DNA of 43,238 bases, taken from NCBI GenBank assembly GCA_001873745.1, contig MNZQ01000003.1:1-43238 (forward strand), in the 5' to 3' direction. The translations under genes and the position numbers were made by a program. A model generated the notes under the pieces. It did no database searches. It saw only the letters and a list, made by a program, of their open reading frames with translations, and was not told where the DNA came from. Source of the DNA: Syntrophaceae bacterium CG2_30_58_14 (GTDB taxonomy: Bacteria > Desulfobacterota > Syntrophia > Syntrophales > UBA5619). Below are positions 13,150-39,483 of the stretch, in pieces (positions within the stretch are counted from its first letter, which is position 1; each line of letters begins with the position of its first letter).

Positions 13150-13178
13150 TTGACAAACGATTGTCGACAATCTACTTT
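13150..13178 (+). promoter_or_regulatory. Promoter with GntR-type operator in the spacer (plus-strand cluster)
   Basis: TTGACA at 13150-13155, a 17-base spacer and TACTTT at 13173-13178. The spacer is filled by the perfect palindrome GATTGTCGACAATC (13159-13172). TTGTCGACAA-like sites are typical of FCD-subfamily GntR repressors. The same -35 and palindrome, plus upstream T-run, recur at 29843-29871 ahead of the amidohydrolase. Binding here would block RNA polymerase directly. Confidence 0.7.
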
Positions 13179-13283: not shown

Positions 13284-14006
13284 ATGATCGACAAGGAGCT
13301 CTGTATCGGATGTGGCGACTGCCTTCCGGTTTGTCCCGTGGGGGCCATCCGGTTGGAAGCGGAATATGCAGAGATCGATGAAGAGATGTGCGTCGAATGC
13401 GGTGTCTGTTACCGGGCGAAGAGATGTACGGTAGAGGCATTCAAACAGGCGCCGGACCTTCCCTGGCCGCGTATTGTCCGCAGGGTGTTCAGCGACCCCA
13501 ATGCCGCGCATTCCACCACGACCGGCGGCTGGGGACGCGGCACGGCGGAAATGAAGAGCAACGATGTAACGGGGCGCTATAAGAGGGGGACGATAGGCAT
13601 CGCCGTCGAGGTCGGGAGACCGGGCGTCGGCGAAACCATCCGCAATATCGAGAAGATTGCCGCTCCGTTTGCTCGCCTCGGTGTTGAGTTCGAACCGCTG
13701 AATCCGTTAACCAGCCTCATGGAAGACACAAAAAAAGCCATTTTTAAAGAAGATGTAAAAAATGAACGGGTGTTGAGTGCGATCATTGAATTCCTGATCG
13801 AACCTTCACGGTTGGAAGAAGTGATGGAGGCTCTGGAAGAAAGTTCCGCCGCTGCAACGGAGACGGTCTTTTCCGTATCCATGATCAACAGACTGGATCC
13901 CGACGGCTCAATTCCCAATATGGAAGCCCTCAAAAAGTTGGGATATCGGGCGTCTCCGAACGCAAAAATCAATTTGGGATTGGGCAGACCGAAAGCGGAC
14001 GCTTAG
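13284..14006 (+). CDS. 2[4Fe-4S] ferredoxin-domain protein, module copy 1
   Basis: A 240-residue protein. Residues 1-55 form a ferredoxin-type double cluster domain: C7, C10, C13, C17 and C36, C39, C42, C48. The second motif is unusual in being followed by Thr rather than Pro. The remaining 185 residues match no family I know; they contain SNDVTGR (92-98), GRPGVGETIR near 113 and a C-terminal NAKINLGLGRP, all shared with the two other copies in the window (17616-18350 and 27072-27794). The protein is probably a cytoplasmic electron-transfer subunit. The ATG at 13284 has a perfect TTGGAGGTG site; upstream codons in frame lie in the promoter region. It is the first gene of the plus-strand cluster, 22 bases ahead of its partner gene. 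Confidence 0.85.
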   Translation: MIDKELCIGCGDCLPVCPVGAIRLEAEYAEIDEEMCVECGVCYRAKRCTVEAFKQAPDLPWPRIVRRVFSDPNAAHSTTTGGWGRGTAEMKSNDVTGRYKRGTIGIAVEVGRPGVGETIRNIEKIAAPFARLGVEFEPLNPLTSLMEDTKKAIFKEDVKNERVLSAIIEFLIEPSRLEEVMEALEESSAAATETVFSVSMINRLDPDGSIPNMEALKKLGYRASPNAKINLGLGRPKADA

Positions 14007-14028
14007 AGAGGAAAGGAGGCGTAAGACC

Positions 14029-14709
14029 GTGACTCATTCGTTGCACAGGGCCGGTACGATCGAAGATTTGGGTTGTGATTATGTCATCATCATTCGCGCG
14101 GAGAAGGGGTACAACCAAGAAGGTTCTGCCGAAAAATGCAAGGAAATCCTGAGACTCTTTCAAAAACATGGCGCCGTGAACATTACCGGCGCCCGGGGTG
14201 CGAATTATAAAGGCAACGTTCTGCAAGCCTCGTTGGATTCCATCGTCGAGGCGTTCAAAGACGGCAATTCTCCCTATTGCGTATTCGATGCGAAAGAAAA
14301 GCTCGAATCGTTTCTCATCGAACTGAAAGAAAAAGATTTTGGATTATCGGTTGTTGTTTCAGGTCTCTATGATACCGTCAAATCCATCTGCGACAGGATC
14401 GGCATCACGCCGCATACGACGAACCACTCCTTGGGCGTCTGGGGCAACACCGCCCTTCTTCCCGATGGCCCGGTGCTTGAAATCACGACGATGTGCGGAC
14501 ACGGCATGGTATCGCGTTACCTGGTGGACGACCTGGTCGAAAAAATTAAGGCCGGTTCCCTGAGCATCGAGAAGGCGGGAATAGAATTGGGCAAGCCCTG
14601 TCTGTGCGGATTGTTCAATCCCAAGCGGGCGGAGAGGCTTCTCCGCAAATTGACGGTTCACGATAAAAAGGAACGGGTGAATACCGGAGTAAAGGGATGG
14701 GCCCTTTAG
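14029..14709 (+). CDS. Cys/His-motif partner protein, module copy 1
   Basis: A 226-residue protein of a family I do not recognise. It starts at GTG 14029 after GAAAGGAGGCG. Features shared with the copies at 18352-19017 and 26408-27061 are HRxGxxEDL at the N-terminus (residues 6-14), SVVVSGL (about 107-113), PHT plus SLGVWG (about 128-139), TMCGHGMVS (154-162) and CLCGLFNPKRAERLL (191-205). The invariant C156, H158, C191 and C193 look like a metal or cluster site. No signal peptide or membrane segment, so it is cytoplasmic. It always follows the ferredoxin protein and is presumably its enzymatic or electron-accepting partner. This copy lacks some of the charged middle region of the others. 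Confidence 0.8.
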   Translation: MTHSLHRAGTIEDLGCDYVIIIRAEKGYNQEGSAEKCKEILRLFQKHGAVNITGARGANYKGNVLQASLDSIVEAFKDGNSPYCVFDAKEKLESFLIELKEKDFGLSVVVSGLYDTVKSICDRIGITPHTTNHSLGVWGNTALLPDGPVLEITTMCGHGMVSRYLVDDLVEKIKAGSLSIEKAGIELGKPCLCGLFNPKRAERLLRKLTVHDKKERVNTGVKGWAL

Positions 14710-14741
14710 TCCGTAATCACCGATACGGAAAGGAGAATGGT

Positions 14742-15349
14742 ATGGGTCCGAACCTCGCCTTTACCCGCGCTGATTCGCCTTACAATGACATGAAAAGCGT
14801 CATCGAATATGCAAAGAAAAATCCCGACAAGATTTCCGTTGCCATCGGCACGGTAGGGGGGTCCGAACATATCAGCGCCCACCGGGTGGGTAAGGCATCG
14901 GGTGCGCAGTTGAACCTGGTCGGTTTTGGCGGCGGCGGGCCGGCTGCCGTAGCCATTCTGGGCGGTCATGTCGATTTGGGGTTTGGAAATGTGAATGAAC
15001 AGATGGGGCAGATTGAAGCAAAGAAAATAAAGCCGCTCGGCGTCATGTCCCCACAGAGGATCCCCGCCATGCCGAATGTGCTGACGATGAAGGAGCAGGG
15101 GATTAATGCCGTATATGTACAGCCGAGAGGCTTCTGGGCGCCGAAGAATTTCCCCGATTATGCGCTGAAATTCTGGGAAGATGCCTTATTCAAACTTTCC
15201 AAGACCAAGGCGTTTCAGGATGTGCTGGAAACCTCCTACTTGCAGTGGATACCTTTATGCGGCATGAGGAAGTCAAGGCGTTCGTCAACGATTATCTGAA
15301 AGTGTTGAAAGTGGATGTCGATGAACTCGGCGTCTATAAGAAGAAATAA
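14742..15349 (+). pseudogene. tctC: TctC gene lacking its N-terminus and frameshifted near the end
   Basis: The frame reads FTRADSPYNDMKSVIEYAKK, IGTVGGSEHIS and GGGGPAAVAILGGHVDLGFG, which is TctC from roughly residue 115 onward. The signal peptide and first lobe are missing, yet a good AAAGGAG site and ATG (14742) directly precede the remainder, as if an internal deletion joined the original start region to the middle of the gene. Near 15250 the frame shifts: the continuation FMRHEEVKAFVNDYLKVLK up to TAA at 15349 is one frame over, and adding one T to the CCTTTATG run restores it. The product could not be exported or bind normally. Its position after the ferredoxin/partner pair and before tctB matches the intact minus-strand cluster. 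Confidence 0.8.
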
Positions 15350-15618: not shown

Positions 15619-16080
15619 ATGAAAAAAGGAGACAGGGTTTTTTCTATCATCTGTATGGGGCTCAGCCTCTGGCTCATACTTGAATCGCGGAGATTCGATT
15701 ATCTATCCAAATTTGGACCGGGACCCGGTTTTTTGCCGTTCTGGCTGGGGATCATCCTCGGATTGATTGCCCTGTTTGCATTTGTCAATACCTTCAGATG
15801 GAAACGAAAGTACGAAGGGGATGAACCGCGCCTGCCCGGTTGGGGATCGCTGAAACGGGTTGGGATAATCATGCTGATCATGGCCGGGTTTGCCCTTTTC
15901 GTGAACAGTCTTGGATTTATCCTTACCGTGTTTTTTTTCGTAACGATTCTGCTATTTGTCTTGGAGGGGGTTGGTTTTTTGAAAAGCCTGTTTTATGGTC
16001 TGACGTTCAGCGCCTCTGTTTTTCTTATTTTTCGTTACTGGATGGAACTTGACCTTCCCAAAGGTCTTCTGGGGATTTGA
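15619..16080 (+). CDS. tctB: TctB-family small membrane subunit of TTT transporter
   Basis: A 153-residue TctB-family protein beginning MKKGDRVFSIICMGLSLWLI. It has the conserved GPGPGFLPFWLGIILG segment (about residues 33-48), four membrane helices and an end of LDLPKGLLGI, as is typical. It closely resembles the TctB at 24756-25217 in sequence layout (both have a GPGF(L/M)PFW turn and an LPKG(L/F)LGI ending), more than the one at 434-883. It lies 13 bases ahead of tctA. It appears intact although the upstream tctC is broken. Confidence 0.88.
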   Translation: MKKGDRVFSIICMGLSLWLILESRRFDYLSKFGPGPGFLPFWLGIILGLIALFAFVNTFRWKRKYEGDEPRLPGWGSLKRVGIIMLIMAGFALFVNSLGFILTVFFFVTILLFVLEGVGFLKSLFYGLTFSASVFLIFRYWMELDLPKGLLGI

Positions 16081-16093
16081 AGGAGAGGGCTCA

Positions 16094-17599
16094 ATGGATG
16101 CTTTTCACAGTTTGATGCAGGGATTTTCGACGGTGATCACCCCGTTTAACATGGGGATGGCCGTCCTGGGCTGTTTTTTCGGCACGCTTGTGGGAATTCT
16201 GCCCGGTCTGGGGCCCTCGGCCACGATTGCAATGCTCCTCCCCCTCACCTTCGGCATGGATGCCACCTCCGCCATGATCATGATGTGTGCGATCTATTAT
16301 GGCGCCATGTATGGCGGATCAACGACGTCGATCCTGGTCAATGTTCCGGGTGAAAGCGCTTCCGTGGTCACCACCTTTGACGGGTACCAGATGGCGCGTC
16401 AGGGGCGCGGCGGGGTGGCTTTGGGGATTTCCGCGATTGGATCCTTTATCGCGGGCATTCTCGGGACGTTTGCCTTGATCTTTGTCTGTGTTCCCCTGTC
16501 GGCGTTCACACTGAAGTTCGGACCGGCGGAATATTTCAGCCTGATCGTGATGGGGATGCTGTGCATTGTTTTTGTCGGCGGAAAATCGATATCGAAATCA
16601 TTGATGAGCGGCGTGATCGGGATGGCTCTCGGGACAATCGGTATTGACGTAATTCAGGGGGCGCCCCGGTTCGTGTACGATTTACCCGAATTGATGGACG
16701 GGGTCTCCTTTATTGTGGTGGTCATGGGTCTGTTCGGTATCGGAGAGGTTCTCGTTTCCGCGGAAGAGCGGATGAAAATAAAACCGATCAGCGTGAAACT
16801 CAAGGATCTTTGGCCGACAATCGCCGATGTTTGGCAATGCAAATGGGCGATACTCAGGGGTACGGCGGTCGGCTTTTTTATCGGCGCCCTGCCCGGAGCG
16901 GGTGCGACCATCGCCTCGTTTCTCGCCTACGGAATCGAAAAAGGCGTTGCCAAGCATCCCGAACGTTTTGGCAAGGGCGCCATCGAGGGGGTAGCCGGAC
17001 CGGAGTCCGCCAATAATGCGGCCAGTTCCGGCGCCTTTGTACCGCTGCTCGCCCTTGGGATTCCGGGTTCCGGCGCCACCGCGGTCATGCTGGGCGCACT
17101 GATGCTTTACGGGTTGAAACCCGGCCCCATGCTGTTTCATACGAATCCCGATTTTGTGTGGGCGGTCATCGCCAGCATGTTTATCGGGAACGTCATCCTG
17201 ATTTTCATGAACCTTCCCATGATTCCCTTTTTTGCGATGGGCTTGCGTATTCCTTACCGATACCTCTATCCGGCGATCCTGCTGATCTGCATCATCGGGG
17301 CATACTCGCTCAGCAGCAGCGTCTATGATGTCTGGGTGATGCTGATTTTCGGCGTGTTCGGATATTTCATGAAAAAATATGACATCCCCGGAGGCCCCAT
17401 GGTCGTCGCCTTGGTGCTGGGACCCATGCTGGAGTACAATCTCTATCGCGCTCTGGCTCTCTCCCGGGGAGATATGACCACGTTTGTCACCCGACCGATT
17501 TCAGGAACGCTGTTGGCCATAGCCGCAATAATGATCGTCGTGGTGACCTTTAAAGCCGTCAGGATGAAAAGGGCCCTGATTGAGGAGAAGGACGAATGA
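16094..17599 (+). CDS. tctA: TctA-family large membrane subunit of TTT transporter
   Basis: A 501-residue TctA with [20 protein letters not shown] at about residues 35-54, [20 protein letters not shown] at about 73-92 and the second-half loop [13 protein letters not shown] near 270. The start at 16094 follows GAAGGAGAGG; an in-frame ATG at 16049 would overlap tctB. This copy and the one at 23230-24735 share long stretches such as FGMDAT(S/P)AMIMMCA and [11 protein letters not shown]-type segments, so they look like recent relatives. With its own tctC broken, it may be idle or may use a binding protein encoded elsewhere, for instance the one at 25260-26234. Confidence 0.93.
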
Positions 17600-17615
17600 T
17601 GACGGGAGGTGTGCC

Positions 17616-18350
17616 ATGCTGATTGACAAGGAAAAGTGCATCGGATGCGAGGAGTGCCATCCCTATTGCCCGGTTGGCGCAATCGCAGCGGTGGAGTGGG
17701 AAGGGAGAGCGGTCAGTGAGATCGATCAGGTGGAGTGTGTGGAGTGCGGATGCTGTTACAAGAGATCCGGCGTCTGCCCGGTCGACGCGATTTATATGCC
17801 GAAATTGGAATGGCCGCGATCCATCCGGGAACCGTTCAGCAATCCCCATATCAAACATCCCTCGACGACCGGTCAGGGAAGGGGAACGGAAGAGATGAAG
17901 ACCAACGATGTGACCGGCCGGTTTCCCTTTGGAATGGCCGGCGTTGCGGTCGAAATGGGTCGCCCCGGCGTCGGCACATCGTTCAGAGACCTGCAGACGG
18001 TGGCCATGGCCATCGCCCGGTTGGGGGTTGAGTTTGAACCCAACAATCCCGTGGCGGAACTGATGGCCGATCCCAAGACGGGAAAGCTCCATGAGCAGGT
18101 GCTGAATGAAAAGGTGCTTTCCGCAATCCTCGAATTCAAGATCAAAACGGAAAAATTGCGGGAAGTTCTTGTAGCCATAAAAGATGTATCGGCAAAAATC
18201 GATACGGTCTTTTCTCTCGATCTGATCAGTCGCGTTTATCCGGATGGAACCACGCCGGCGCTGGCCATTGCCAAAGACGCCGGATTTACTCCCAGACCGA
18301 ACACCAAGACGAACGTGGGCCTCGGCCGGCCGCTGTTCAAGGAGGCATAA
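17616..18350 (+). CDS. 2[4Fe-4S] ferredoxin-domain protein, module copy 2
   Basis: A 244-residue paralogue of the proteins at 13284-14006 and 27072-27794. Cluster ligands are C8, C11, C14, C18 and C41, C44, C47, C54, with an extra Cys at 46 and a CP ending in the second motif. The rest carries RGTEEMKTNDVTGRF (about 95-110), GRPGVGTSFRDLQ, NEKVLSAILEFKI and TKTNVGLGRP at the end. The start at 17616 has a GGGAGGTG site and follows tctA by 16 bases, so in this operon the module appears both before and after the transporter genes. Likely a cytoplasmic electron carrier to the partner encoded one base downstream. Confidence 0.87.
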   Translation: MLIDKEKCIGCEECHPYCPVGAIAAVEWEGRAVSEIDQVECVECGCCYKRSGVCPVDAIYMPKLEWPRSIREPFSNPHIKHPSTTGQGRGTEEMKTNDVTGRFPFGMAGVAVEMGRPGVGTSFRDLQTVAMAIARLGVEFEPNNPVAELMADPKTGKLHEQVLNEKVLSAILEFKIKTEKLREVLVAIKDVSAKIDTVFSLDLISRVYPDGTTPALAIAKDAGFTPRPNTKTNVGLGRPLFKEA

Positions 18351-18351
18351 C

Positions 18352-19017
18352 ATGACGCACACATTGCACCGGCAGGGGAGTGTCGAAGATCTCCATGAGG
18401 ACTATGTCCTGCTGATTCGGACGTCCCGCTTTGTGAACCATGAGGGATCGGAGAAAACCATGCAGCAGATCTGGGAGGTGATCTCCCATTATGAGCAGGA
18501 TCTGGTGAATTTCGGCAATCATAATCCCAACTGGGATGGGGGCGAGCTGTACGACATGGAAGCCTTGAAGAAGGCCAAGAGCCGGATCATCCACGTGGTC
18601 TTCAGGGATCGCGAGAGGATCAAGGCGTGCCTGAAAGAGATCAAGGAGCGGGATTTCGGCATTTCCACCGTGGTGTCGGGATTATGCGGGGAGACGGAAA
18701 AGATATGTTCGGAAATCGGCCTGCACCCCCATACGGTGAACTATTCCCTGGGCGTTCACGGCAGGACGGAGCGGCTGCCGAAAGGGGAAACCCTGGAAAT
18801 CCATACGATGTGCGGGCATGCCATGGTCTCCTACCATCTGATTGACCATATGGTCAAAGAGATCCGTCGGGGGAAAATGACCTGCAAAGCGGCAGCCAGG
18901 AAGCTCTCCCGGATGTGCGACTGCGGCATCTTCAATACCTATCGGGCGGAAAAACTGCTGATGAAAATGACGGCCGGACGCCCTGAAGAGATCTCAATCG
19001 GTGGCGATGATGCCTGA
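18352..19017 (+). CDS. Cys/His-motif partner protein, module copy 2
   Basis: A 221-residue paralogue of the partner proteins at 14029-14709 and 26408-27061. It begins MTHTLHRQGSVEDL and contains DFGISTVVSGLCGE (about 101-114), HPHTVNYSLGVHG (about 125-137), HTMCGHAMVSYHLID (151-165) and MCDCGIFNTYRAEKLL (188-203). C154, H156, C189 and C191 are the conserved candidate ligands. The coding region begins one base after the stop of the ferredoxin gene, whose GGAGG serves as ribosome-binding site, so the two are translationally coupled and probably made in equal amounts. No known family recognised. Confidence 0.82.
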   Translation: MTHTLHRQGSVEDLHEDYVLLIRTSRFVNHEGSEKTMQQIWEVISHYEQDLVNFGNHNPNWDGGELYDMEALKKAKSRIIHVVFRDRERIKACLKEIKERDFGISTVVSGLCGETEKICSEIGLHPHTVNYSLGVHGRTERLPKGETLEIHTMCGHAMVSYHLIDHMVKEIRRGKMTCKAAARKLSRMCDCGIFNTYRAEKLLMKMTAGRPEEISIGGDDA

Positions 19018-19184: not shown

Positions 19185-20159
19185 ATGCTCAACGAGGAAC
19201 GGATGGTTCAGGTGGCCGAGCAGGTTGTGACGCAGGTTCTGGCCCTTAAGCCGGGGGAGACGGTATGCCTCCTCCGGGATACGGAGGAGGATTCGAGACC
19301 CTTTGCCGAGATCCTCTCTGCGGCCGCGTGGCGGGTGGGGGCCGAACCGGTATCGCTGATTATCGTACCCCGGACGGTCGGCGGCCAGAAATTGCCCGAG
19401 CCGGTAGCGGGGGCATTCCTCCATTCCAGCGCCGTCATCAACATCGCCAAGTGGCCGATTGTGCACAGCCGGGCGGTCAGCGCCGCGCTGGGGGCCGGGG
19501 CCCGGACCTGCAATCTTCGGGGCTTCAATGACGGGATGTTAGAGAGCCCCGGGGTCACCACCGACTACGAGGCGGTCCGGCGCAACGCGCTGGCGGTCGA
19601 TTCGCTGCTCGAGAAGACCCGCGAGATCCGCTTTACCACCGCCGACGGGTGTGACCTGACCATGCAGCTCTGCGGCCGAAAAGGGAAGGCGCAGACCGGC
19701 TTTGCCGACGAACCAGGAAGGTTTTCGGGTCTTCCCGACGGGGAATCCACGGTTGCCCCGCTGGAAGGGACCACCCAGGGGTGTATTGTAAACCCCTACA
19801 TCATCGACAAGATCGGGCGGGCGGACGAGCCTTTCCGGATGGAGATCAAGGACGGCTGGATCGTGAACGTGGAAGGGGGCAAACAGGCCCGGGAATTGCT
19901 GGAGCTGTTCGAGAAGACCGATCCCAACGCCCGGCGGTTCGCCTCTCAGTTCGCCCTCGGGATGAACCCCGACTGCCGCATTATCCCCGATACGAGAGAG
20001 GTTTCCAAGAGATTGGGCACCCTGCATGTGGCGTTGGGCGACAACATCTCCCTGGGAGGGGCGATCCAGTGCGGGCTGCACATCGACATCGTCATCCTGA
20101 ATCCAACAGTCTGGCTGGACGGGAAAATTGTTTTGGAGAACGGAAAGTTGTTCATTTAG
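19185..20159 (+). CDS. M29 aminopeptidase-like / NicX-like metalloenzyme
   Basis: A 324-residue protein of the thermophilic metallo-aminopeptidase (M29) superfamily, which includes the iron enzyme 2,5-dihydroxypyridine dioxygenase NicX. The C-terminal half shows the family metal-site region: GTLHVALGDNISLGG at about residues 278-292, then LHIDIVI and PTVWLDGKIVLENG at the end. It is shorter than M29 peptidases (about 400) and nearer to NicX (about 350). The start at 19185 follows CGGAGGAG. In context (transporter, amidase, hydrolases) a role in breaking down the imported compound is likely; whether by peptide or amide hydrolysis or by ring cleavage cannot be said, and oxygen-dependent ring cleavage seems unlikely if the host is anaerobic. 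Confidence 0.72.
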   Translation: MLNEERMVQVAEQVVTQVLALKPGETVCLLRDTEEDSRPFAEILSAAAWRVGAEPVSLIIVPRTVGGQKLPEPVAGAFLHSSAVINIAKWPIVHSRAVSAALGAGARTCNLRGFNDGMLESPGVTTDYEAVRRNALAVDSLLEKTREIRFTTADGCDLTMQLCGRKGKAQTGFADEPGRFSGLPDGESTVAPLEGTTQGCIVNPYIIDKIGRADEPFRMEIKDGWIVNVEGGKQARELLELFEKTDPNARRFASQFALGMNPDCRIIPDTREVSKRLGTLHVALGDNISLGGAIQCGLHIDIVILNPTVWLDGKIVLENGKLFI

Positions 20160-20231
20160 GGGCCGGAGGAGGCGATCGCTCTTAAGACACGCCGCCCGAG
20201 GAATGAAAGGAGAGCGTGTGCGGGGTTGGAA

Positions 20232-21608
20232 ATGAAGGAAGAAAAAATGGCCGCCGGGGAAATCATCCGCCTGCTGAGCGCGTATATTGCCCGGAGCGGG
20301 GAGGCTGAACTCCCCGCTCCGGTGATCCGGAAGGATAAACATCACATCCTGGATACGTTGGGCGCGATCCTCTGCGGCTCCTGTCTCAAGCCGGGTATGC
20401 TTGCGAAGAAGTTCGTCGCGCAGCAGGGAGGGACGAGAGAGGCCCAGGTCGCCGGATCTCCCATCGTCGCCACGGCGATCAACGCCTCCTTCGCCATGGC
20501 GATGATGGCCCATTCCGATGAGACCGACGATTCCCACGAAAGGGCGGGCATGCACCCGGGCTGCGGCATCGTTCCCGCCGCGCTGGCTGTCGCGGAAAGG
20601 GAAGGGGCAGACGGATCGAGGTTTCTCAGAGGGGTCGTGGCCGGATATGACATCGGCTGCCGCATTACCCAGGCCCTGGGGGTGGAGAATATCCGCCGGC
20701 GCGCGCTTTCGCTGCACGGCATCGGCAGCAACTTCGGGGCGGCTGCCGCCGCGGCTTCGGTGATGGGGCTCAAGGAAGATCTGGTAAGGTATGTCTGGGA
20801 TTATACCGCCCAACAGGATTCGGGCAAGTATTACTGGGTGCGCGATACGGACCACGTGGAAAAGGCTTTTGTTTTCGCCGGGATGGGCGCCAGAAACGGC
20901 GTGACTTCGGCGATACTGGTGCAATCGGGGTTTACCGGGGTTGCGGATGTCTTCAGCGGCGAGCACAACTATTTTGAATCCTTTTCTCCCGTCGCCAACA
21001 CGGAATTCCTCGTCGACGGCCTGGGCGAACGCTATGAGATAGAACATACCGATATCAAGAAATTTTCCGTCGGCGCCCCGATCCAGGCCCCGCTCGACGC
21101 GCTCTTGATTCTGAGGGAAAGGCACGGCCTGACCGCGGCGAATGTGCAGGGCATCATCGCCCGCGTGCCCGACGACCGGGCGCTGATCGTTCGGGACCGA
21201 AATATGCCGGACGTGGATCTGAAACACGTTCTGGCCGTCGCCTTGATCGATGGCGACATCACCTTTTCAACCTCACACTGTTACGAAAGGATGAAGGACC
21301 CGGCTGTCCTGGAGGTCAGAAATCGGATCACGCTTGTCGGAGATCCGGAACTGAGAACGGCCAAAATCAAACGGGGCGGGATCGTGGAGATCAAGACCAC
21401 GGACGGCGCCCAATTGCGTGAGCATGTCGAACTGGTCCGCGGCAGGCCGGGAAATCCGATGTCGGATCAAGAGATTGAGCAGAAATGCGCTGACCTGATG
21501 CGGCCGGTCCTCGGCGAAAAGCGCACGCGAAGCTTGATCGCCCGGGTCTGGAATATCGAAAAGATCAAGAATGTGCGGGATCTTCGTTCTCTGCTTTCCG
21601 CTCCCTGA
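20232..21608 (+). CDS. MmgE/PrpD family protein
   Basis: A 458-residue protein of the MmgE/PrpD family, which includes 2-methylcitrate dehydratase, cis-aconitate decarboxylase and several isomerases acting on carboxylates. The N-terminal helical domain shows KHHILDTLGAILCGS (about residues 36-50), AHSDETDDSHERAGMHPGCGIVPAALA (about 97-123, the family HxGxxxxPA-type region) and the typical VVAGYDIGCRI. The C-terminal half has KKFSVGAPIQAPLDALL. Three starts are possible: TTG 20226, ATG 20232 and ATG 20247; the last has the best-spaced GAAGGAAG site. It is the last gene of the plus-strand cluster and converges on the amidase gene with a 53-base gap. Confidence 0.88.
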   Translation: MKEEKMAAGEIIRLLSAYIARSGEAELPAPVIRKDKHHILDTLGAILCGSCLKPGMLAKKFVAQQGGTREAQVAGSPIVATAINASFAMAMMAHSDETDDSHERAGMHPGCGIVPAALAVAEREGADGSRFLRGVVAGYDIGCRITQALGVENIRRRALSLHGIGSNFGAAAAAASVMGLKEDLVRYVWDYTAQQDSGKYYWVRDTDHVEKAFVFAGMGARNGVTSAILVQSGFTGVADVFSGEHNYFESFSPVANTEFLVDGLGERYEIEHTDIKKFSVGAPIQAPLDALLILRERHGLTAANVQGIIARVPDDRALIVRDRNMPDVDLKHVLAVALIDGDITFSTSHCYERMKDPAVLEVRNRITLVGDPELRTAKIKRGGIVEIKTTDGAQLREHVELVRGRPGNPMSDQEIEQKCADLMRPVLGEKRTRSLIARVWNIEKIKNVRDLRSLLSAP

Positions 21609-21653: not shown

Positions 21654-21694
21654 TTACCCTGTTATGTCATTCCGTGCTTGACACGGAATCCAGT
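21654..21694 (+). repeat. Repeat-derived sequence at the 3' end of the amidase gene
   Basis: TGTCATTCCGTGC and its complement GACACGGAATCCAG form a short palindrome of the same general style as family 1 (TGTCATTCC ... GGAATCCAG) but with different internal sequence. It overlaps the stop codon of the amidase on the minus strand and supplies the last codons of that gene. Similar repeat-like sequence continues to about 21775. Confidence 0.6.
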
Positions 21695-23152
21695 TTCTAT
21701 CGTGGTTTCCGGCTTTCGCTCGGACGAAGTCTGGATACCGGCGCCTGTCCCGGATATTGATCCAGGATTCACCGGTATGGCGGTTTGTGCTCCCCCGAGT
21801 TCAGCCCGGTTGCCCGGTTGCGCCGTGAACGCCAGGACCTTTTCGCACCAGGCGGCGACGTCGAGGAGCGTTTCCTCGCGGTAGGGCTGTGCGGCGATCT
21901 GCATCGCGAAGGGAAGGCCGTTGGCATCGAGCCCCGTTGGCAGCGACATCGCCGGGAAGCCGGCGACGCTCCAGGGCTGGTTGAAGACGCTGGAACCGGT
22001 GGAGGAGAGCCCGCGCGGCGCCGTCGTCGAGGCGATCGGCATGATCGCCGCATCCACGTCGGCCATTTGTTCGCACATCTCCCCCTGGAAGAGGATCCGG
22101 TAACGGAGATGTTCGACGTACTCGTGGCCTTGGATGGACGCTCCCTTTTCCAGACGGGCCCGGAGTTTCGGTGGGTACTCCTCCCGATGCTCCTCGAAAA
22201 GGGGCCGGTGGTAGGCGTAGAGTTCCGCCTGCTTGATGATGCCCCAGCAGGCGCCGACGAAGGCGAAGGAAGGGGGGAAGGCAAGCTCGACGATCTCCGC
22301 GCCGGCGGCCAGGAACTGCGCACGGACGGAGGCGAGGTTTGCCAGAACCTCCGGAGAGGTCTCCGCCTCAAAAAACTCGCGGATATAACCCAGACGGGGT
22401 GGGGAGCCGGCGAGCCGGGGGCGGGAGTGGACATGCGGTTCGGGCATCCTCGCAAAAGGCCGGGGCTGATTTTCTCGCATGCAGGGCCACAGGAGCGCGG
22501 CGTCGGCCACGGAGCGGGTGTGGACGCCGACGTGATCGATGGTCCAGGAGTTCGGCAGCACCCCTTCGTTGCTCACCTCGCCGTAGGTCGCCTTGAACCC
22601 GACGATCCCGTTGTAGGCGGCGGGCCGGAGCAGCGAGCCCCCCGTCTGCGTTCCGAGGGCCGCCGGGCACATGCGATCCGCCACCGCGGCGCCGGAGCCG
22701 CTGCTCGACCCCCCCGGGGTGTGTTCGGGGTTCCAGGGATTCCGGGTGATTGTGGGGTCGTTGTTGGCGAAAGGGGTTGTCTCCGTTTTGCCGAGGAAGA
22801 TCGCCCCTGCCTTCCGGAGGCGGGCGATCGCCGGGGCGTCCTCGGCGGGGATCCGGGCGGGGTAGATCGGTGTCCCGCAGCGGGTCCACTGCCCCCGGAC
22901 GTCGATGATGTCCTTCACGCCGATGGGTATCCCGTGGAGCGGCCCCTGGCGGTTTCCCGCCCGCAACTCGCGGTCGCAGCGGCGCGCCTCCGCGAGGGCA
23001 TCCTGTTCATAGACCTCGACCCAGGCGTGGATGATCTCCTCCCGCGCATGGATCCGCTCCAGGCACGATTCCATCAGTTTTTCCGCCGTCAGTTTGCCGG
23101 ACTTTATCCGTTCCCCAGCCTCCCGGACGGTCAACTCTCTCGGTTCATCCAT
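21662..23152 (-). CDS. Amidase signature family amidase
   Basis: A 496-residue amidase-signature enzyme. The Ser-Ser-Lys triad is visible: Lys in GIPIGVKDIIDV (about residue 81), Ser in ALGTQTGGSLL (about 179) and the bridging Ser in the GGSSSGSGAAVA segment (about 155). It hydrolyses an amide to acid and ammonia. The frame is open to 23194, but the extra 14 codons come from palindromic repeat family 2; the ATG at 23152 with CAGGGGG is the better start. The last 35 or so residues (from about PVNPGSISG to the end) also read like translated repeat sequence and are probably not part of the fold. It is the last gene of the minus-strand cluster, 77 bases after tctA, which suggests that the imported or internal substrate carries an amide. 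Confidence 0.9.
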   Translation of the reverse strand: MDEPRELTVREAGERIKSGKLTAEKLMESCLERIHAREEIIHAWVEVYEQDALAEARRCDRELRAGNRQGPLHGIPIGVKDIIDVRGQWTRCGTPIYPARIPAEDAPAIARLRKAGAIFLGKTETTPFANNDPTITRNPWNPEHTPGGSSSGSGAAVADRMCPAALGTQTGGSLLRPAAYNGIVGFKATYGEVSNEGVLPNSWTIDHVGVHTRSVADAALLWPCMRENQPRPFARMPEPHVHSRPRLAGSPPRLGYIREFFEAETSPEVLANLASVRAQFLAAGAEIVELAFPPSFAFVGACWGIIKQAELYAYHRPLFEEHREEYPPKLRARLEKGASIQGHEYVEHLRYRILFQGEMCEQMADVDAAIMPIASTTAPRGLSSTGSSVFNQPWSVAGFPAMSLPTGLDANGLPFAMQIAAQPYREETLLDVAAWCEKVLAFTAQPGNRAELGGAQTAIPVNPGSISGTGAGIQTSSERKPETTIETGFRVKHGMT

Positions 23153-23165
23153 AAGCGCCCCCTGA

Positions 23166-23226
23166 ATAACCCCCATGCCCAGGCGCGGGCACAACGAAAC
23201 ATGAAAATCCCCCCGTGCCCCCCTTT
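23166..23226 (-). repeat. C/G-run palindromic repeat, family 2, copy b (half element)
   Basis: Reads ATAACCCCCATGCCCAGG, then ACAACGAAACATGAAAATCC, a run of C and CCCCCCTTT, matching the flank and first arm of the element at 3687-3772 (its reverse strand) and stopping at the centre of the palindrome. It lies between tctA and the amidase gene. Confidence 0.75.
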
Positions 23227-23229
23227 AGC

Positions 23230-24735
23230 TCAATTCTGCTCGTCCTTGACCATCGCCCTCGCCCGCTTGACGGCCTTCGTTCCGACGGCGATGCACATGA
23301 TCAGGCTGATCGCCAGCAGCGTGCCCGAGATCGGGCGCGTGATGAACACCAGCATGCTCCCGTGGGAGAGGTTGAGGGCCTGGTAGAGGGCCCTCTCCAT
23401 CATCGGTCCGAGAAGGAGGGCGAGCAGCATCGGCGCGGGGGGGATATCCGCCCTCTTCATGAAATAGCCGGCGACGCCGAAGATCAACATCATCCCGACG
23501 TCGAAGAGACTGGTGCTGATCGCGTAGGCGCCGATGACGCAGATGATGAGGATCGCCGGGTAGATGAGGGCGTAGGAGATCCGAAGCAGCGAGGCGAAGA
23601 GCGGCACCATCGGGAGGTTCATGATGATCAGGATCACGTTCCCGATGAACATCGAGGCCATGACCGCCCAGACGAAATCGGCGTTCTCGATGAAGAGCAT
23701 GGGGCCGGGTTTGAGGCCGTAAAGAATGAGCGCCCCCAGCATGACCGCCGTGGCCCCCGATCCGGGGATCCCTAAGGCGAACATCGGGACCATCGCCCCG
23801 GAGGTTGCCGCGTTGTTGGAGGACTCCGGTCCCGCGACCCCTTCGAGAACCCCCGTGCCGAATGTCTCGGGGTGCTTGTGGACGCTCTTCTCGATGCCGT
23901 AAGTCACGAAGGAGGCGATCGTCGGCCCGGCGCCGGGAAGGACGCCGATGATGAAGCCGATGAGCGTCCCCCGGAGGATGGCCCATTTGCACTGGAGGAT
24001 CTCTTTGAGGGAGGGGAAGAGTTCCCGGAATTTGACCTTGATCGGCTCCACCTTCATGAACTCCTCGGCGGAGACGAGGACCTCGGCGATGCCGAAGGTC
24101 CCCATGACGAGGACGACGAAATCGATGCCGTCTAAGAGCTCGGCGGTCCCATAGGTAAAACGATCCTTTCCTTCGACGATGTCGGTTCCGACGCAGCCGA
24201 GGCCGAGGCCGATCATGGCGCTCATCAGGGATTTCGGGATCGATTTGCCGCCGACGAAGATGATCGTCAGCATCCCCATGACGATGAGGCTGAAGAATTC
24301 AGCCGGGCCGAATTGGAGACTGAACTCGGCGAGCGGCACAGCGGCGACGACGAGGCCGATCGTCCCCAGGATGCCGGCAACGAAGGAGCCGATGGCCGAG
24401 AGGCCGAGGGCCGTTCCCGCTTTCCCCTGTATGGCGAGCTGGTGACCCTCGATCGCCGTGATGACCGACGAGGATTCCCCGGGGACGTTGATCAGGATCG
24501 AGGTGGTGGAGCCGCCGTACATCGCCCCGTAGTAAACCGCGCACATCATGATCATGGCGGGGGTGGCGTCCATGCCGAAGGTGATCGGCAGCAGGATGGC
24601 GATCGTCGCCGAGGGGCCGAGACCGGGGAGGATTCCAACCAACGTTCCGAGCAGACAGCCGAGGAGGGCCATCCAGAGTTTATAAGGGGTCAGGCAGGTG
24701 GCGAAGCCGCCCATTAAACCTTCCAGGATATCCAT
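23230..24735 (-). CDS. tctA: TctA-family large membrane subunit of TTT transporter
   Basis: A 501-residue TctA with [20 protein letters not shown] at about residues 35-54, [20 protein letters not shown] at about 73-92 and GVLPGAGPTIASF near 270. Length is normal, with ten or more membrane segments and a short charged C-terminus (KDEQN). It is close to the TctA at 16094-17599. The ATG follows AAAAGGAGACG. It is 20 bases downstream of tctB in an intact tctCBA set, the only complete one within the window. Confidence 0.94.
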   Translation of the reverse strand: MDILEGLMGGFATCLTPYKLWMALLGCLLGTLVGILPGLGPSATIAILLPITFGMDATPAMIMMCAVYYGAMYGGSTTSILINVPGESSSVITAIEGHQLAIQGKAGTALGLSAIGSFVAGILGTIGLVVAAVPLAEFSLQFGPAEFFSLIVMGMLTIIFVGGKSIPKSLMSAMIGLGLGCVGTDIVEGKDRFTYGTAELLDGIDFVVLVMGTFGIAEVLVSAEEFMKVEPIKVKFRELFPSLKEILQCKWAILRGTLIGFIIGVLPGAGPTIASFVTYGIEKSVHKHPETFGTGVLEGVAGPESSNNAATSGAMVPMFALGIPGSGATAVMLGALILYGLKPGPMLFIENADFVWAVMASMFIGNVILIIMNLPMVPLFASLLRISYALIYPAILIICVIGAYAISTSLFDVGMMLIFGVAGYFMKRADIPPAPMLLALLLGPMMERALYQALNLSHGSMLVFITRPISGTLLAISLIMCIAVGTKAVKRARAMVKDEQN

Positions 24736-24755: not shown

Positions 24756-25217
24756 CTAAATTCCCAAAAAGCCTTTGGGGAGGCTCATATTCAGCAAGTA
24801 TTCAAAGATGAGCCAGGTCACGGCCGCGTAGGCGACGCCGTAGCCGATACTCTTGATGATGCTGTATCGCTCCAGGATCAACAGGATCGCCGCCACGAAC
24901 AGGCAGACCGTGATGGGAAAGCCCAGGAGAGGCATGATCATCAAGACGCCGAAGAGCATCAGGAAAATGAATCCGACGCGGTAGAGGGCATGCTTATGGG
25001 GGAGGATCTTCATGTCGTCCTCCGTTCCCGGTTTGCGTCGGAAGGTGTCGTAGAGCAGATAACAGGAGAGGATGGCCAGGATGACCCCCACCCAGAAGGG
25101 CATAAAACCCGGACCAGGGGTAAAATCCGTCATGTAGTGAAATTGTCTTGATTCGAGGTAGCACCAGAGGCTGAGTCCCAGCCCGATCACCCCGAAGATA
25201 CGGTCCGCTTTTCTCAT
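24756..25217 (-). CDS. tctB: TctB-family small membrane subunit of TTT transporter
   Basis: A 153-residue TctB starting MRKADRIFGVIGLGLSLW, with PGPGFMPFWVGVILAI at about residues 34-49, four membrane helices and the ending MSLPKGFLGI. The ATG has a CTGGAGGAC site. It resembles the TctB at 15619-16080 in length and in N- and C-terminal motifs. It is co-directional with tctC (42-base gap) and tctA. Confidence 0.9.
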   Translation of the reverse strand: MRKADRIFGVIGLGLSLWCYLESRQFHYMTDFTPGPGFMPFWVGVILAILSCYLLYDTFRRKPGTEDDMKILPHKHALYRVGFIFLMLFGVLMIMPLLGFPITVCLFVAAILLILERYSIIKSIGYGVAYAAVTWLIFEYLLNMSLPKGFLGI

Positions 25218-25259: not shown

Positions 25260-26234
25260 CTATTTGCTCTCCTGAATGTACTTGGCGTCCTTGATGAGTT
25301 CCGCGTTGTAACCCTGGATGAACGCCTTGGTCTCCGCCGCTGTCTTGTAGGAGACAACGTAGTCGGACTTCTTTGCAAACTCTTTGAACTCTTTGGTCTT
25401 CACCAACTTCGCGAAGGCGTCTTCCCAGAACTTGACCGCCTCGGGCGAAAAGTTCGGACCGCCGAAGAAACCGCGGAACTGCGTGAAGGCGGCGTTGGTT
25501 CCCTGTTCGATCAGCGTGGGGATGTCCTTGTAGTAGGGGACCCGGGTTTCGCCCATATTGGCCAGGACCCTGGCCCTTTTGGCCTTCACATGGCTCGACG
25601 TCTCTGCGGTGTTTCCGAAGGCCATGTCGATGTGGCCGCCGATCAACTGGGTCGGGCTGAACTCGAAGGCGGTGATGTTGAACTTCACGCCTGCCACCCT
25701 CTCGATCCGGGCGGCCATGATATGTTCCGAGCCGCCGATGCTGTTGATGCCGACGCTGACCTTCTTGGGCTTAGACTTCGCGTCGGCGAGCAGGTCCTTA
25801 TAGGTCTTGTAGGGGGATTTGTAAGGGACGATCATCACATTCCCGTCTTCGACAAGCGTGGTCAGCCAGGTGACCTCCTCGAACTTCATCTTGGTCGTGC
25901 CGCGGTTCAGCGCATTGAGCTGCGCGGTCGTCCACATCATCACGACATTCGGGTCGCCTCCCTTCGAGAGTAGGTAGTTGAGGGCCACGGCAGATGATCC
26001 GCCCTGGTGCGTAGTGACCTGGATCTTGTTCTTGACGATTCCGGTCTTGTTCAGCAATTCACCGCAGGTGAGGACGAACAGGCCGGCGCCGCCGCCGGGC
26101 GAAGAATGGTGCATCAACTCGATGACCTTGCCCGGTTCCGGATAGACAGCCTGGGCTGTGGGGGCAACGGCCAGCGTGATCACAAACAGGGGAAAAATCA
26201 CGACGGTGGAAAAAAACAGACCTTTCTTTCTCAT
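25260..26234 (-). CDS. tctC: TctC-family periplasmic carboxylate-binding protein
   Basis: A 324-residue TTT solute-binding protein. Residues 1-28 are a classic signal peptide (Arg-Lys-Lys, hydrophobic core, then APTAQA). The mature protein shows the family pattern: a substrate-loop region with SSPGGGAGLFV near 42-52, THQGGSSAVALNYL (about 75-88), PYKTYKDLLADAKSKPKKVSVG (about 140-160), GGSEHIMAARIE and GGHIDMAFGN (about 198-207). Aligned with the remnant at 14742-15349, it keeps the same GGSEH motif, so the two probably bind related compounds. The ATG at 26234 follows AAAAGGAGTG; codons further upstream in frame lie in the 173-base gap after the partner gene. Confidence 0.92.
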   Translation of the reverse strand: MRKKGLFFSTVVIFPLFVITLAVAPTAQAVYPEPGKVIELMHHSSPGGGAGLFVLTCGELLNKTGIVKNKIQVTTHQGGSSAVALNYLLSKGGDPNVVMMWTTAQLNALNRGTTKMKFEEVTWLTTLVEDGNVMIVPYKSPYKTYKDLLADAKSKPKKVSVGINSIGGSEHIMAARIERVAGVKFNITAFEFSPTQLIGGHIDMAFGNTAETSSHVKAKRARVLANMGETRVPYYKDIPTLIEQGTNAAFTQFRGFFGGPNFSPEAVKFWEDAFAKLVKTKEFKEFAKKSDYVVSYKTAAETKAFIQGYNAELIKDAKYIQESK

Positions 26235-26407
26235 GGCACACTCCTTTTTTTTCATGTTGGGGGAATCGAGAGCGACGCCCCTCCGGTTATTTGTTCTTAA
26301 ACCATTGATCCGTGACGCCTTTTCCGGCTTCACCCCCTTTCAAAAGAGAAGCAGGCGCCTCTCGTCATGAAAGATCTTGCAGCTCATCTTCCAGATGGAT
26401 CCGGCAC

Positions 26408-27061
26408 TCAGCTCTTTGCGCCGGCGGGACTGTTTTCCTTCAATTCCTTCAGGATCGCCTCGCAGCGGTCCGTGTTGAAGATCCCGCAGGGACAGGGCTG
26501 GGCGAGCAGGTGGGCCCCCTTCTCAGGGGTCATCTTCCCCGCCTTCACCCGTTCCATGACCACCTTCGTAAGTTTGGAGGAGACCATGCCGTGGCCGCAC
26601 ATCGTCGTGACCTGCTGGACCTCATCCTCGGGAAGAAGGGATCTCTTCCCGTGAACGCCGAGGGAGAGGAAGGCGGTGTGCGGTTTAAGGTCGAGATCCC
26701 GCGCGATCTTGACGATCTCGTCGATCAGGCCGCTGATGACAATCGAGATCCCCGTCTCCGCCTCCTTGAGCTTCTTCAGCAGCGACCGGACCGCCTCCTT
26801 GTCGGAGAAGCAGCCGGCGACGCCGTAGGCCTTGTCCAGCGTGGCCGCATACTCATCGGGTTTCAGGCCCGCCTTGAAGCTCTTCCCCGCCTGGCTGGAG
26901 CCGTAGTTGACGAGGTTCTTCTCCTCGAGGGCGATGCTCAGGATCTTGCGAAGTTTGGGGCCGCACCCCTCCCGGTTGACATAGCGGGAGGCGCGGGCGT
27001 AAAAGGTGTAATCATTCTGAAGCTGCTCGACGGTTCCATGGCGGTGCAGGGCATGACTCAT
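26408..27061 (-). CDS. Cys/His-motif partner protein, module copy 3
   Basis: A 217-residue paralogue of the proteins at 14029-14709 and 18352-19017. It begins MSHALHRHGTVEQL and keeps ISIVISGL (about 105-112), KPHT with SLGVHG (about 126-138), TTMCGHGMVS (152-161) and PCPCGIFNTDRCEAIL (189-204); the conserved candidate ligands are C155, H157, C190 and C192. The middle (residues 40-90) differs most between copies and may hold the specificity. The GGAGG site lies in the 10-base gap after the ferredoxin gene, so the pair is tightly coupled here too. Family unknown to me. Confidence 0.82.
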   Translation of the reverse strand: MSHALHRHGTVEQLQNDYTFYARASRYVNREGCGPKLRKILSIALEEKNLVNYGSSQAGKSFKAGLKPDEYAATLDKAYGVAGCFSDKEAVRSLLKKLKEAETGISIVISGLIDEIVKIARDLDLKPHTAFLSLGVHGKRSLLPEDEVQQVTTMCGHGMVSSKLTKVVMERVKAGKMTPEKGAHLLAQPCPCGIFNTDRCEAILKELKENSPAGAKS

Positions 27062-27071
27062 AATAGCCTCC

Positions 27072-27794
27072 TTAAGGTTCGACGATGGGACGTCCCATCC
27101 CCATGTTGATCTTGGCGTTTGGCCGGGTGGGAACACCAAGGGCCTCCAGGCGGGCGCGGACGGGCAGGGTTCCGTCCTCCGCAAAACGGGATGCCAGACC
27201 CCAGGAGACGACGGTATCGACCTCGGCGAGGACCGGCCGGAGCTGCCGGACGATCTCTTCTAACTGCTCCTCCCGGATCTTGAATTCGAGGATGGCGGAG
27301 AGGACCTTTTCGTTCCGGAATTCCGGTTTGACCTTTCCGGTGAGCGGTTCTTCCAGAAAGGCAAAAACGGCATTATCGTGCTCCAGCTCCACATCCATCC
27401 GGATGAGGGCCTGGAGGACCTTTTCGAGGTCGCTCATCCGGGCGCCCGTCCCGGGGCGGCCGAACTCGAGGGCCATGCCGTACTCCCCCCGGCGGAACCG
27501 TCCGGTCACATCGTTGGTCTTCATCTCCTCGGTGCCGCGCCCACCCTGGTTTGTCGAGGGATGCCAGACGCCGGGATCGCTGAACTGGGCCCGGATCGCA
27601 CGCGGGTACTGCATGGATTCCTCCGGCATGTAAAGGGCGTCCGTCGGGCAGACGCCGGCATGCAGACAGACGCCGCAATCGACGCACTCATCCTGGTCAA
27701 TCGAGACGACATCGTCCTGCTCCGCAATACATTTCATCGGGCAGAAATCGACACATTCGAGACAGGCGATACATTTTTCGGGATCGATTTTCAT
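27072..27794 (-). CDS. 2[4Fe-4S] ferredoxin-domain protein, module copy 3
   Basis: A 240-residue paralogue of the ferredoxin proteins at 13284-14006 and 17616-18350. Cluster ligands are C8, C11, C14, C18 and C37, C40, C43, C49; the first motif ends CPMKC, with an additional Cys at 22. The C-terminal domain has RGTEEMKTNDVTGRFRRGE (about 85-103), FGRPGTGARM, NEKVLSAILEFKI and PNAKINMGMGRP at the end. Its ATG overlaps the TGA of the gntR gene by four bases, so regulator and ferredoxin protein are translated from one message. It is followed by partner, tctC, tctB and tctA. Confidence 0.87.
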   Translation of the reverse strand: MKIDPEKCIACLECVDFCPMKCIAEQDDVVSIDQDECVDCGVCLHAGVCPTDALYMPEESMQYPRAIRAQFSDPGVWHPSTNQGGRGTEEMKTNDVTGRFRRGEYGMALEFGRPGTGARMSDLEKVLQALIRMDVELEHDNAVFAFLEEPLTGKVKPEFRNEKVLSAILEFKIREEQLEEIVRQLRPVLAEVDTVVSWGLASRFAEDGTLPVRARLEALGVPTRPNAKINMGMGRPIVEP

Positions 27795-28456
27795 TTTTCC
27801 TCTCCGTTCTTGAATATTTCCGAGAACCGTTCGATCTGACCCAGGATTGAATTCTTCCGGATCCGTTCGGCCGCTTCGGCGTCCCCCGCCTCGAAAGAGA
27901 CGATGATCGCCGCGTGGATCTTTGTGGAGTTTCTCATCCAGCCCGGGCCGCTCGAGACGGCCATGCGATAGCGGATGGTCTGTTTGTCGAAGTTCTGAAT
28001 GAGCTGGATCAGCCGCGGGTTTTCGCAGGCATTGATCAGGAGCCCATGGAACTTCTCGTTCAACTGCTGGTAGGCGGCGACGTTTTCTTTTTCCGCCGCC
28101 CGGATCATCTGTTCATGCATCTTCTTCAATTTTTTCAGGAATTCGGGGGTCTGTTTCTCGACGGCCAGTGAGGTAGCCAGTCCGTCGAGGCTGGCCCGGA
28201 TGCGGTAGATGTCCTCCGCCTCCCGCTGCGTGCTTCGGGCGACGGAGATCCCCTTCCGTGGTTCGCGGACGACAAAACCCCGACTCTCTAAGATCTGGAA
28301 GGCCTCCCGCACCGGGGAGCGGCTGACGCCCAAGGTCTTGCACAGGGCCTCTTCGATGATCCTCTGCCCCGGCTGAAGCGCGCCGTCGACGATCTTCTTC
28401 TCCAGCTCCTCGACGATGTGCTCCGCCAGACTCTTCTGCTTGATCAATTCATCCAT
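27791..28456 (-). CDS. GntR family transcriptional regulator, FCD subfamily
   Basis: A 221-residue regulator. Residues 9-70 form the GntR winged helix (LQPGQRIIEEALCKTLGVSR, SPVREAFQILESRGFV). Residues 80-210 form an all-helical FCD ligand domain. FCD domains normally use an acidic residue and three His to hold a metal; here N133 and H137 (NEKFH) and H181 are visible, while the last His position appears to be N202, so the metal site may be altered. Such proteins usually repress catabolic genes until a carboxylate inducer binds. The TTGTCGACAA palindromes at 13159-13172 and 29851-29860 are fitting operators. It lies between the amidohydrolase and ferredoxin genes of the cluster it probably controls. 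Confidence 0.88.
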   Translation of the reverse strand: MDELIKQKSLAEHIVEELEKKIVDGALQPGQRIIEEALCKTLGVSRSPVREAFQILESRGFVVREPRKGISVARSTQREAEDIYRIRASLDGLATSLAVEKQTPEFLKKLKKMHEQMIRAAEKENVAAYQQLNEKFHGLLINACENPRLIQLIQNFDKQTIRYRMAVSSGPGWMRNSTKIHAAIIVSFEAGDAEAAERIRKNSILGQIERFSEIFKNGEEK

Positions 28457-28579: not shown

Positions 28580-29749
28580 TTACGAATGAAGTCCGTACAT
28601 TCGGGCGGCGTTGTCGTGGAGGATCATCCGTCCCGCTTTTTCCGCGTCTTTTTCGCACATGAGCCCCAGACGAACGGAGTCCGTCAGGACCTCGCCTACG
28701 GCGATCTTCGCCGTTTTGGCGGCAAGCCAGGAGACCTCCGGCGAGCCGTGGCCGCCGCTGCCGATCATCAGCTTGGAAAGAGGGGCCAGCCCGATCACGT
28801 CGCGGTAGCACGCTACGATCCTCTGGGACGTCCAGGGGGTCGTCCAGCCCATATCGACCCAGACGTGGGGGAAGGTATGGGCCATCATGCCGGCATGCTG
28901 CATCCAGGGGTGGCCGGCATGGAGGAGCACGAGCCGCGTCAGGAGGAACCGGGGCTGCCGCAGGATGGGGACGAGGAGGAATGGGTCGGTGTTGGCGACG
29001 GGGCCGTTCCAGAGGCCGCCGGTGATGCCGGTATGAATGTGGATGGGGAACTTCAACTCCTGGGCTTGGACCATCGTCGCCAGCCAGATGGCCATATAGA
29101 CCTTCTTGAAGGCCTCGCCGTCCCCCGCTGCGGCTGCGGAGAAATGGCGTTCAGCCTCATCCGCCTCCACCGGCGCGGCGCCGAAACCGACGAGTTCGCC
29201 CAAGTGGGACTTGATCCCGACAAAACCGTCCTGCCGTATCGCCTTCTCGACGCCTGCCTGGAAAGCGCGGAGGAGTTCGGCGTAAGAGCCGCTCGATGCC
29301 AGCAGCGTCTTGAAAAGCGGGTCCATCTGGAGGAGACGGATTTTCGGACCCGGGGTCAAATCGAGGATCGGGTCGTTGATGGGGAGGTTTGAATCCATCA
29401 CGGAGCAGACGATTCCGGCATCCTCATAGAGCATCTTCGCATACCCCGCGAGGCCGACCTTCGCCGTCCGTCGGTTCCGCTCCGCGGTGACCGTCGAAAG
29501 CTCCGGCTCGCAGCCGAAGACCATGGCTAGCTGGCAGACAACGGTCAGGACGACGCCCATATGGGGAAAGTGGAAGAGGAGATCGTCCGTGGCGCCCCAA
29601 AGCTTGGGCTTGGCAACGCCGGGGATGGGGGTGTCGGCGATGCCGTGAAAAAATTCCCGGGCGAGCCAGATCGGTTCCATGGTTTTCTTTTCGGGTTCGA
29701 GTACGTGGCAGTGGTTGTCCACGACGGGGCAGCGGTTAAAATCGGGCAT
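28580..29749 (-). CDS. Amidohydrolase-2 family metal-dependent hydrolase
   Basis: A 389-residue TIM-barrel amidohydrolase. Visible active-site elements are H13 and H15 (VVDNHCHV), K180 in GIKSHLGE, H237 and H239 in FPIHIHTGI, and LLHAGHP at 275-281. The usual catalytic Asp after the last strand (typically GSDG or SSDG) appears as G332 in MIGSGGHGSPE, which if real would weaken or change the activity. Family members hydrolyse or decarboxylate ring and carboxylate compounds. The ATG at 29749 has a perfect ATGGAGGT site; the open frame before it lies in the leader. First gene of the minus-strand cluster, under the operator-bearing promoter at 29843-29871. Confidence 0.85.
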   Translation of the reverse strand: MPDFNRCPVVDNHCHVLEPEKKTMEPIWLAREFFHGIADTPIPGVAKPKLWGATDDLLFHFPHMGVVLTVVCQLAMVFGCEPELSTVTAERNRRTAKVGLAGYAKMLYEDAGIVCSVMDSNLPINDPILDLTPGPKIRLLQMDPLFKTLLASSGSYAELLRAFQAGVEKAIRQDGFVGIKSHLGELVGFGAAPVEADEAERHFSAAAAGDGEAFKKVYMAIWLATMVQAQELKFPIHIHTGITGGLWNGPVANTDPFLLVPILRQPRFLLTRLVLLHAGHPWMQHAGMMAHTFPHVWVDMGWTTPWTSQRIVACYRDVIGLAPLSKLMIGSGGHGSPEVSWLAAKTAKIAVGEVLTDSVRLGLMCEKDAEKAGRMILHDNAARMYGLHS

Positions 29750-29842: not shown

Positions 29843-29871
29843 ATGGTATTTTGTCGACAATCGTTTGTCAA
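29843..29871 (-). promoter_or_regulatory. Promoter with GntR-type operator in the spacer (minus-strand cluster)
   Basis: On the minus strand, TTGACA (29866-29871), a 17-base spacer and TACCAT (29843-29848). The spacer contains the palindrome TTGTCGACAA (29851-29860). From the upstream T-run through the palindrome it is almost identical to the promoter at 13150-13178, and the downstream leaders also share CGCCGGC and CATCATTCC before the ribosome-binding site, so one was copied from the other. Confidence 0.7.
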
Positions 29872-31636: not shown

Positions 31637-31652
31637 CGCCGAACCTCCGAAC

Positions 31653-32357: not shown

Positions 32358-32389
32358 GACGCGTTCTCCTTAAAAACGATAGGATGTTG

Positions 32390-33172: not shown

Positions 33173-33183
33173 GGTTTTATGAC

Positions 33184-36214: not shown

Positions 36215-36215
36215 T

Positions 36216-39468: not shown

Positions 39469-39483
39469 GCGGTTATCCTTCGT

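Follow-up and report, generated by a model that had tools for sequence, protein, structure and literature searches.

Two convergent gene clusters in the window, the whole 43,238-nt stretch of DNA analysed here from Syntrophaceae bacterium CG2_30_58_14, begin with promoters that carry the same palindrome, and the second gene of one cluster encodes an FCD-type GntR regulator. What does this regulator control? Our main reading, to which we give a probability of about 0.84, is that the palindrome TTGTCGACAA is the operator of the encoded GntR protein, that a bound dimer would bar RNA polymerase, and that clusters 1 and 2 form one autoregulated, inducible two-operon regulon.

Two promoters with a common palindrome

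The two promoters are as follows (G000 is the source genome; G004 and the like are its relatives).

13150-13178, plus strand: promoter of cluster 1; -35 TTGACA 13150-13155, palindrome TTGTCGACAA 13161-13170, -10 TACTTT 13173-13178; conserved in G004 and G006
29843-29871, minus strand: promoter of cluster 2; -35 TTGACA 29871-29866, palindrome 29860-29851, -10 TACCAT 29848-29843; conserved in G004, G010, G017 and G019

TTGACA-N5-TTGTCGACAA thus stands at 13150-13170 (plus) and 29871-29851 (minus), at the heads of two convergent operons. Site 1 reads CTTTTTGC TTGACA AACGATTGTCGACAATC TACTTT on the plus strand and site 2 reads CTTTTTTGC TTGACA AACGATTGTCGACAAAA TACCAT on the minus strand. Both have the T-run, the perfect TTGACA and the 17-nt spacer of the preliminary description; the spacer holds AACGATTGTCGACAA, the -10 element begins with TAC, and the two sites share the 28 nt TTTTTGCTTGACAAACGATTGTCGACAA letter for letter. 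That the palindrome exactly fills the spacer was, however, an overstatement: it occupies spacer positions 6-15, between the -35 and -10 elements, and so covers 10 of 17 bases, or 14 of 17 if the wider symmetry found in site 1 is counted (GATTGTCGACAATC, 13159-13172; 14 bp versus 10 bp in site 2). The palindrome reads TTGT-CG-ACAA, a TKGT/ACMA-type site with a 2-nt gap between GT and AC as in HypR, MdcY and PrpR (2-3 nt in FCD sites), in agreement with the earlier view that palindromes of this type are known for the FCD subfamily; the same motif has been published for the FCD repressor PrpR.

Translation probably begins at 13284 and 29749, after GGAGG motifs, and therefore both promoters are intergenic. 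Longer open reading frames run into the promoters, but we judged them mechanical and preferred the GGAGG-preceded starts. The short blocks CGCCGGC and CATCATTCC shared by the two leaders are indeed present downstream; they are not kept in relatives, and the idea of a second regulatory element there was dropped for this reason.

Gene content of the clusters

The promoters lie 16.7 kb apart and the clusters, first described as about 16 kb end to end, meet at 21608/21662. Their genes are listed below.

13284-14709, plus: ferredoxin/partner pair (cluster 1)
14697-15299, plus: TctC remnant
15619-16080, plus: TctB
16049-17599, plus: TctA
17613-19017, plus: second ferredoxin/partner pair
19185-20159, plus: M29-like protein (Pfam; PDB relative 2,5-dihydroxypyridine dioxygenase, 1e-10)
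20226-21608, plus: MmgE/PrpD relative, end of cluster 1 (Pfam)
28580-29749, minus: Amidohydrolase_2 family protein, first gene of cluster 2 (Pfam, 7e-13); first behind the promoter in G004, G010, G017 and G019
27791-28456, minus: FCD-type GntR regulator of 221 aa (Pfam, PDB relatives, alignment), the putative repressor at both promoters
27072-27794, minus: ferredoxin-domain protein
26408-27064, minus: ferredoxin partner
25260-26333, minus: TctC (Pfam)
24756-25217, minus: TctB (Pfam)
23230-24735, minus: TctA (Pfam)
21662-23194, minus: amidase (Pfam)

Paralogues common to both clusters are TctA (68% identity), the ferredoxin-domain proteins (40-51%) and their partners (38-43%). Neither prpC nor prpB is among the annotated genes of the clusters, which hold only the distant MmgE/PrpD relative, and a simple scan detected no terminator between the converging clusters. 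Compared with G006, the cluster 1 TctC gene lacks about 370 nt in the 5' half and carries a 2-nt frameshift near the 3' end; either gene decay to a pseudogene or an error of assembly may lie behind this. The cluster 2 TctC gene looks intact. Cluster 2 of G004 has an extra M29-like gene (L052:10005-10958, 47% identical to that of the window) between the ferredoxin partner and TctC, which the window lacks.

The ferredoxin/partner genes form three paralogous pairs (13284-14709, 17613-19017 and 26408-27794). One member combines a 2[4Fe-4S] ferredoxin domain with a second domain; the other is a 220-aa protein with invariant TMCGH and CxCG motifs, which matched neither a family of Pfam or NCBIfam nor any PDB sequence. 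The partner occurs in 29 of 395 genomes of the phylum, with up to seven copies in one, and at almost every locus inspected the ferredoxin gene adjoins it. Structure predictions (pLDDT 88) gave weak PDB matches, none of them good beyond the ferredoxin domain. These pairs, together with the Tct transporters, the amidohydrolase, the amidase, the dioxygenase relative and the MmgE/PrpD relative, are less known than the regulatory switch.

A separate set on the minus strand at 31142-41232 encodes a DeoR-type regulator, an isomerase with arabinose/fucose-isomerase domains, an FGGY-type kinase, a DeoC/LacD aldolase and an ABC importer; it resembles an operon for the breakdown of a sugar or sugar acid, several of the gene names coming from reading of the sequence. 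The near-site TTTTCGACAA at 35652 in the window lies within a kinase gene and was taken as chance.

Uniqueness and conservation of the promoter

In the 3.04-Mb, 204-contig assembly, TTGTCGACAA has two copies, both at these operon heads. With first-order Markov statistics taken from the window, about 2.5 copies are expected, so the number alone is not an excess; the probability that TTGACA stands equally far from both copies is about 1e-7. No third full promoter was found in this genome with up to three mismatches allowed, in a draft assembly from which further sites may be absent. The palindrome might have proved common throughout the genome; instead, its only copies sit at the two clusters.

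Among the source genome and 20 relatives of its family, the full promoter with the exact palindrome occurs eight times in six of the 21 genomes (two copies each in G000 and G004, one each in G006, G010, G017 and G019) and is absent from the other 15. Those of the matching records that bear a name are Syntrophales, Syntrophus and Deltaproteobacteria MAGs. Judged by the neighbouring genes, all eight promoters head one of two operons: the ferredoxin-first operon in G000, G004 and G006, and the amidohydrolase-first operon in G000, G004, G010, G017 and G019. The footprinting in relatives proposed at the outset thus found the palindrome conserved and the promoter kept at these operons. Core identity among the eight promoters is 86-100%, whereas promoters that are not sisters have near-random flanks. 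In the window's own pair, the core is 86% identical and the flanks 28% and 38%; such diverged flanks beside a kept core exclude a recent promoter copy.

G019 has two variant sites. One, TTTTCGACAA within the conserved core at L102:7936 (minus strand; G019:C52), precedes a distant TctCBA operon, which is a possible third regulon member in G019 as far as its promoter indicates. The other, TTATCGATAA, precedes a second GntR gene. The pattern TTGACAA.CGATT.TCGA.AA..TAC is invariant over all ten sites, i.e. the eight promoters and these two variants.

The encoded regulator and its link to the palindrome

The preliminary description placed an FCD-GntR gene at 27791-28456, and the protein has both domains over the curated cut-offs of Pfam: PF00392 (GntR, 8.2e-18) and PF07729 (FCD, 3.4e-25). 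Its best PDB relative is 7xp0, which may be Pseudomonas PrpR. In the alignment, Arg46 of the recognition-helix motif SRSPVREA corresponds to Arg45 of FadR and Atu1419, which contacts G (PMC4494728 Table 1; PMC7797058). In the FCD domain, Asn-xxx-His and the second His are present and the last His is replaced by Asn-Ser in the window protein and its orthologues, as read from the alignment rather than from a structure. By this reading, the window GntR lacks the full Asp/Asn plus three His of the metal-binding FCD group (TM0439, LldR and Atu1419).

The sequence itself shows that the sites exist, that the assembly has no others, that relatives conserve them and that they are linked with the GntR gene. 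Orthologues among the 20 family relatives are found in G004 (90%), G017 (73%, broken by frameshifts) and G019 (70% and 66%), and the promoter is present in all four family genomes that have the gene, the source genome included. No orthologue was detected in G006 and G010, whose contigs stop before the expected place of the gene. A 61% orthologue occurs in G180, of a distant family of the phylum, with ATTGTATACAAT there. More distant FCD-GntR genes (30-41% identity) have TTGTCGACAA upstream of themselves: L075 is from Desulfobacteraceae, L078 from Sphaerobacter, and L046 and L027 from two relatives in the order Syntrophales. In L075 and L078 TTGACA also stands at the same spacing.

The second G019 copy of the regulator (66%; L054:2300-3146, G019:C261) has His in place of Arg46, and its promoter has TTATCGATAA, in which the G that is read is changed symmetrically to A while the rest of the core is conserved. 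This covariation is one case, not a statistic, and TTATCGATAA arises by chance a few times per genome. It also fits the consensus TTATMKATAA of BioR, another regulator of the FadR subfamily (PMC4494728). On the other side of this gene lies a divergent ferredoxin/partner operon.

The linkage in four genomes, the palindromes upstream of distant FCD-GntR genes and the Arg46His/TTATCGATAA covariation together suggest that the encoded FCD-GntR very probably binds the shared operator. FCD paralogues can share palindromes, and the source genome has at least eight other FCD-GntR relatives; in G001, the gene of a 32% relative is itself preceded by this palindrome. Another paralogue might accordingly bind the palindromes, alone or with the local GntR, the cluster 2 protein then not being the main regulator. 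We consider this unlikely, since the genome's only two sites stand at clusters containing this GntR gene, the link between site and gene is kept in other genera, and the Arg46His/TTATCGATAA pair belongs to this orthologous group. That the two clusters form one regulon under the encoded FCD-GntR, as originally proposed, is well supported by the uniqueness of the sites, the footprinting, the gene linkage, the one covariation and the published FCD motif.

Proposed mechanism and comparison with known systems

We infer binding, repression and induction by the GntR protein at both promoters. A GntR dimer would sit on the palindrome between the -35 and -10 elements, a position from which polymerase blocking by the repressor can be soundly inferred, and would keep RNA polymerase off both promoters. 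Because its gene is the second of cluster 2, self-repression is predicted: cluster 2 (amidohydrolase, GntR, ferredoxin/partner, TctCBA and amidase) would repress itself through its own GntR, and cluster 1 (ferredoxin/partner, Tct, ferredoxin/partner, M29-like and PrpD-like) would be co-repressed by the same protein. Some metabolite of the imported substrate would release the repression.

The closest known case is PrpR (PA0797) of Pseudomonas aeruginosa, the GntR/FCD repressor of the 2-methylcitrate operon (PMC9765439). A literature search with the 10-nt palindrome gave, among the matches listed, papers unrelated by title; a search with the 12-nt form pointed to PrpR. For this protein the predicted motif is ATTGTCGACAAT, and PrpR binds a region holding it and represses (PMC9765439). 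This 12-nt palindrome is matched in 12 of 12 bases by site 1 and in 11 of 12 by site 2, and an FCD-GntR protein with an autoregulated operon (predicted here) is common to both systems. PrpR, however, controls prp genes, whereas the clusters here are without prpC and prpB. AlkR binds ATTGTCAGACAAT (PMC12042122). It shares the half-sites ATTGTC/GACAAT, the importance of arginine (its Arg45 and Arg49 are critical for binding) and repression of a catabolic gene (predicted here), but its site has one more base between the half-sites and lies over the -10 element, its effector is a long-chain acyl-CoA, and it controls alkane genes. Atu1419 of Agrobacterium fabrum, of the VanR group, has a 10-bp palindrome over the -10 element or between -35 and -10, the latter at its own gene; its Arg45 reads G3, and it represses itself and other genes in one catabolic region (PMC7797058). 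In contrast to the case here, the Atu1419 tetramer can loop DNA, no convincing second site being found at the window promoters, and Atu1419 has the full Asn/His/His/His metal site, of which the window GntR lacks the last His.

Looping tetramers such as Atu1419 use a second operator some 100-200 bp away, and all eight promoters have weak GACAA matches 107-143 nt downstream. These fall in coding sequence, either where the ferredoxin gene starts or within the amidohydrolase motif VVDNHCH, and only one of five amidohydrolase genes has the TTGT half given by third codon bases; coding constraint accounts for the matches, and they make no convincing second operator. The operator may be larger than the palindrome. 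TTGACAA, the -35 element with the next base, includes a further, third GACAA half-site whose distance from the palindrome centre is about 11 nt, and none of the ten sites has lost the link A(A/G)CG, which polymerase does not require. Suvorova et al. describe additional, weaker half-sites at 7-12 nt from the centre of many GntR sites. On this reading, less probable than not, the repressor would compete for the -35 bases, perhaps as two dimers or a tetramer, and the G019 duplicate would have insulated itself through Arg46His and TTATCGATAA.

The effector was earlier proposed to be a pathway carboxylate, for which we found no support: the last metal-binding His is missing in the orthologues, so a metal-held carboxylate cannot be assumed, and two well-studied VanR-group relatives respond to methylene-tetrahydrofolate (PMC7797058) and long-chain acyl-CoA (PMC12042122). 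Pseudomonas PrpR, with the same palindrome, is thought to answer to 2-methylcitrate, as inferred in that paper (PMC9765439), and this counts for a carboxylate inducer.

FadR-type regulators with activating roles exist; E. coli FadR activates at fabA. It is nevertheless improbable, and slightly more so than control by a paralogue, that the GntR protein binds but acts other than as a simple repressor, e.g. as an activator or with a co-repressor, given the operator between a perfect -35 and the -10 element and the fact that Atu1419, AlkR and Pseudomonas PrpR are effector-released repressors (PMC7797058, PMC12042122, PMC9765439). Very improbable is that the likeness of the promoters is a leftover of paralogous operon duplication, with no regulator using the palindrome: the clusters do share paralogues, but these are of old origin, the core has stayed identical, across genera too, between flanks that are near random, and the first genes of the two clusters differ.

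Conclusion

The repressed two-operon regulon proposed here is a convincing but ordinary case of a known type of gene switch. Its value lies in assigning a regulator, an operator and operons to an uncharacterised anaerobic gene set of uncultured Syntrophales, including the ferredoxin/partner modules. In addition, the natural pair of Arg46 with TTGTCGACAA and His46 with TTATCGATAA offers a way into how the specificity of FCD repressors changes after duplication.
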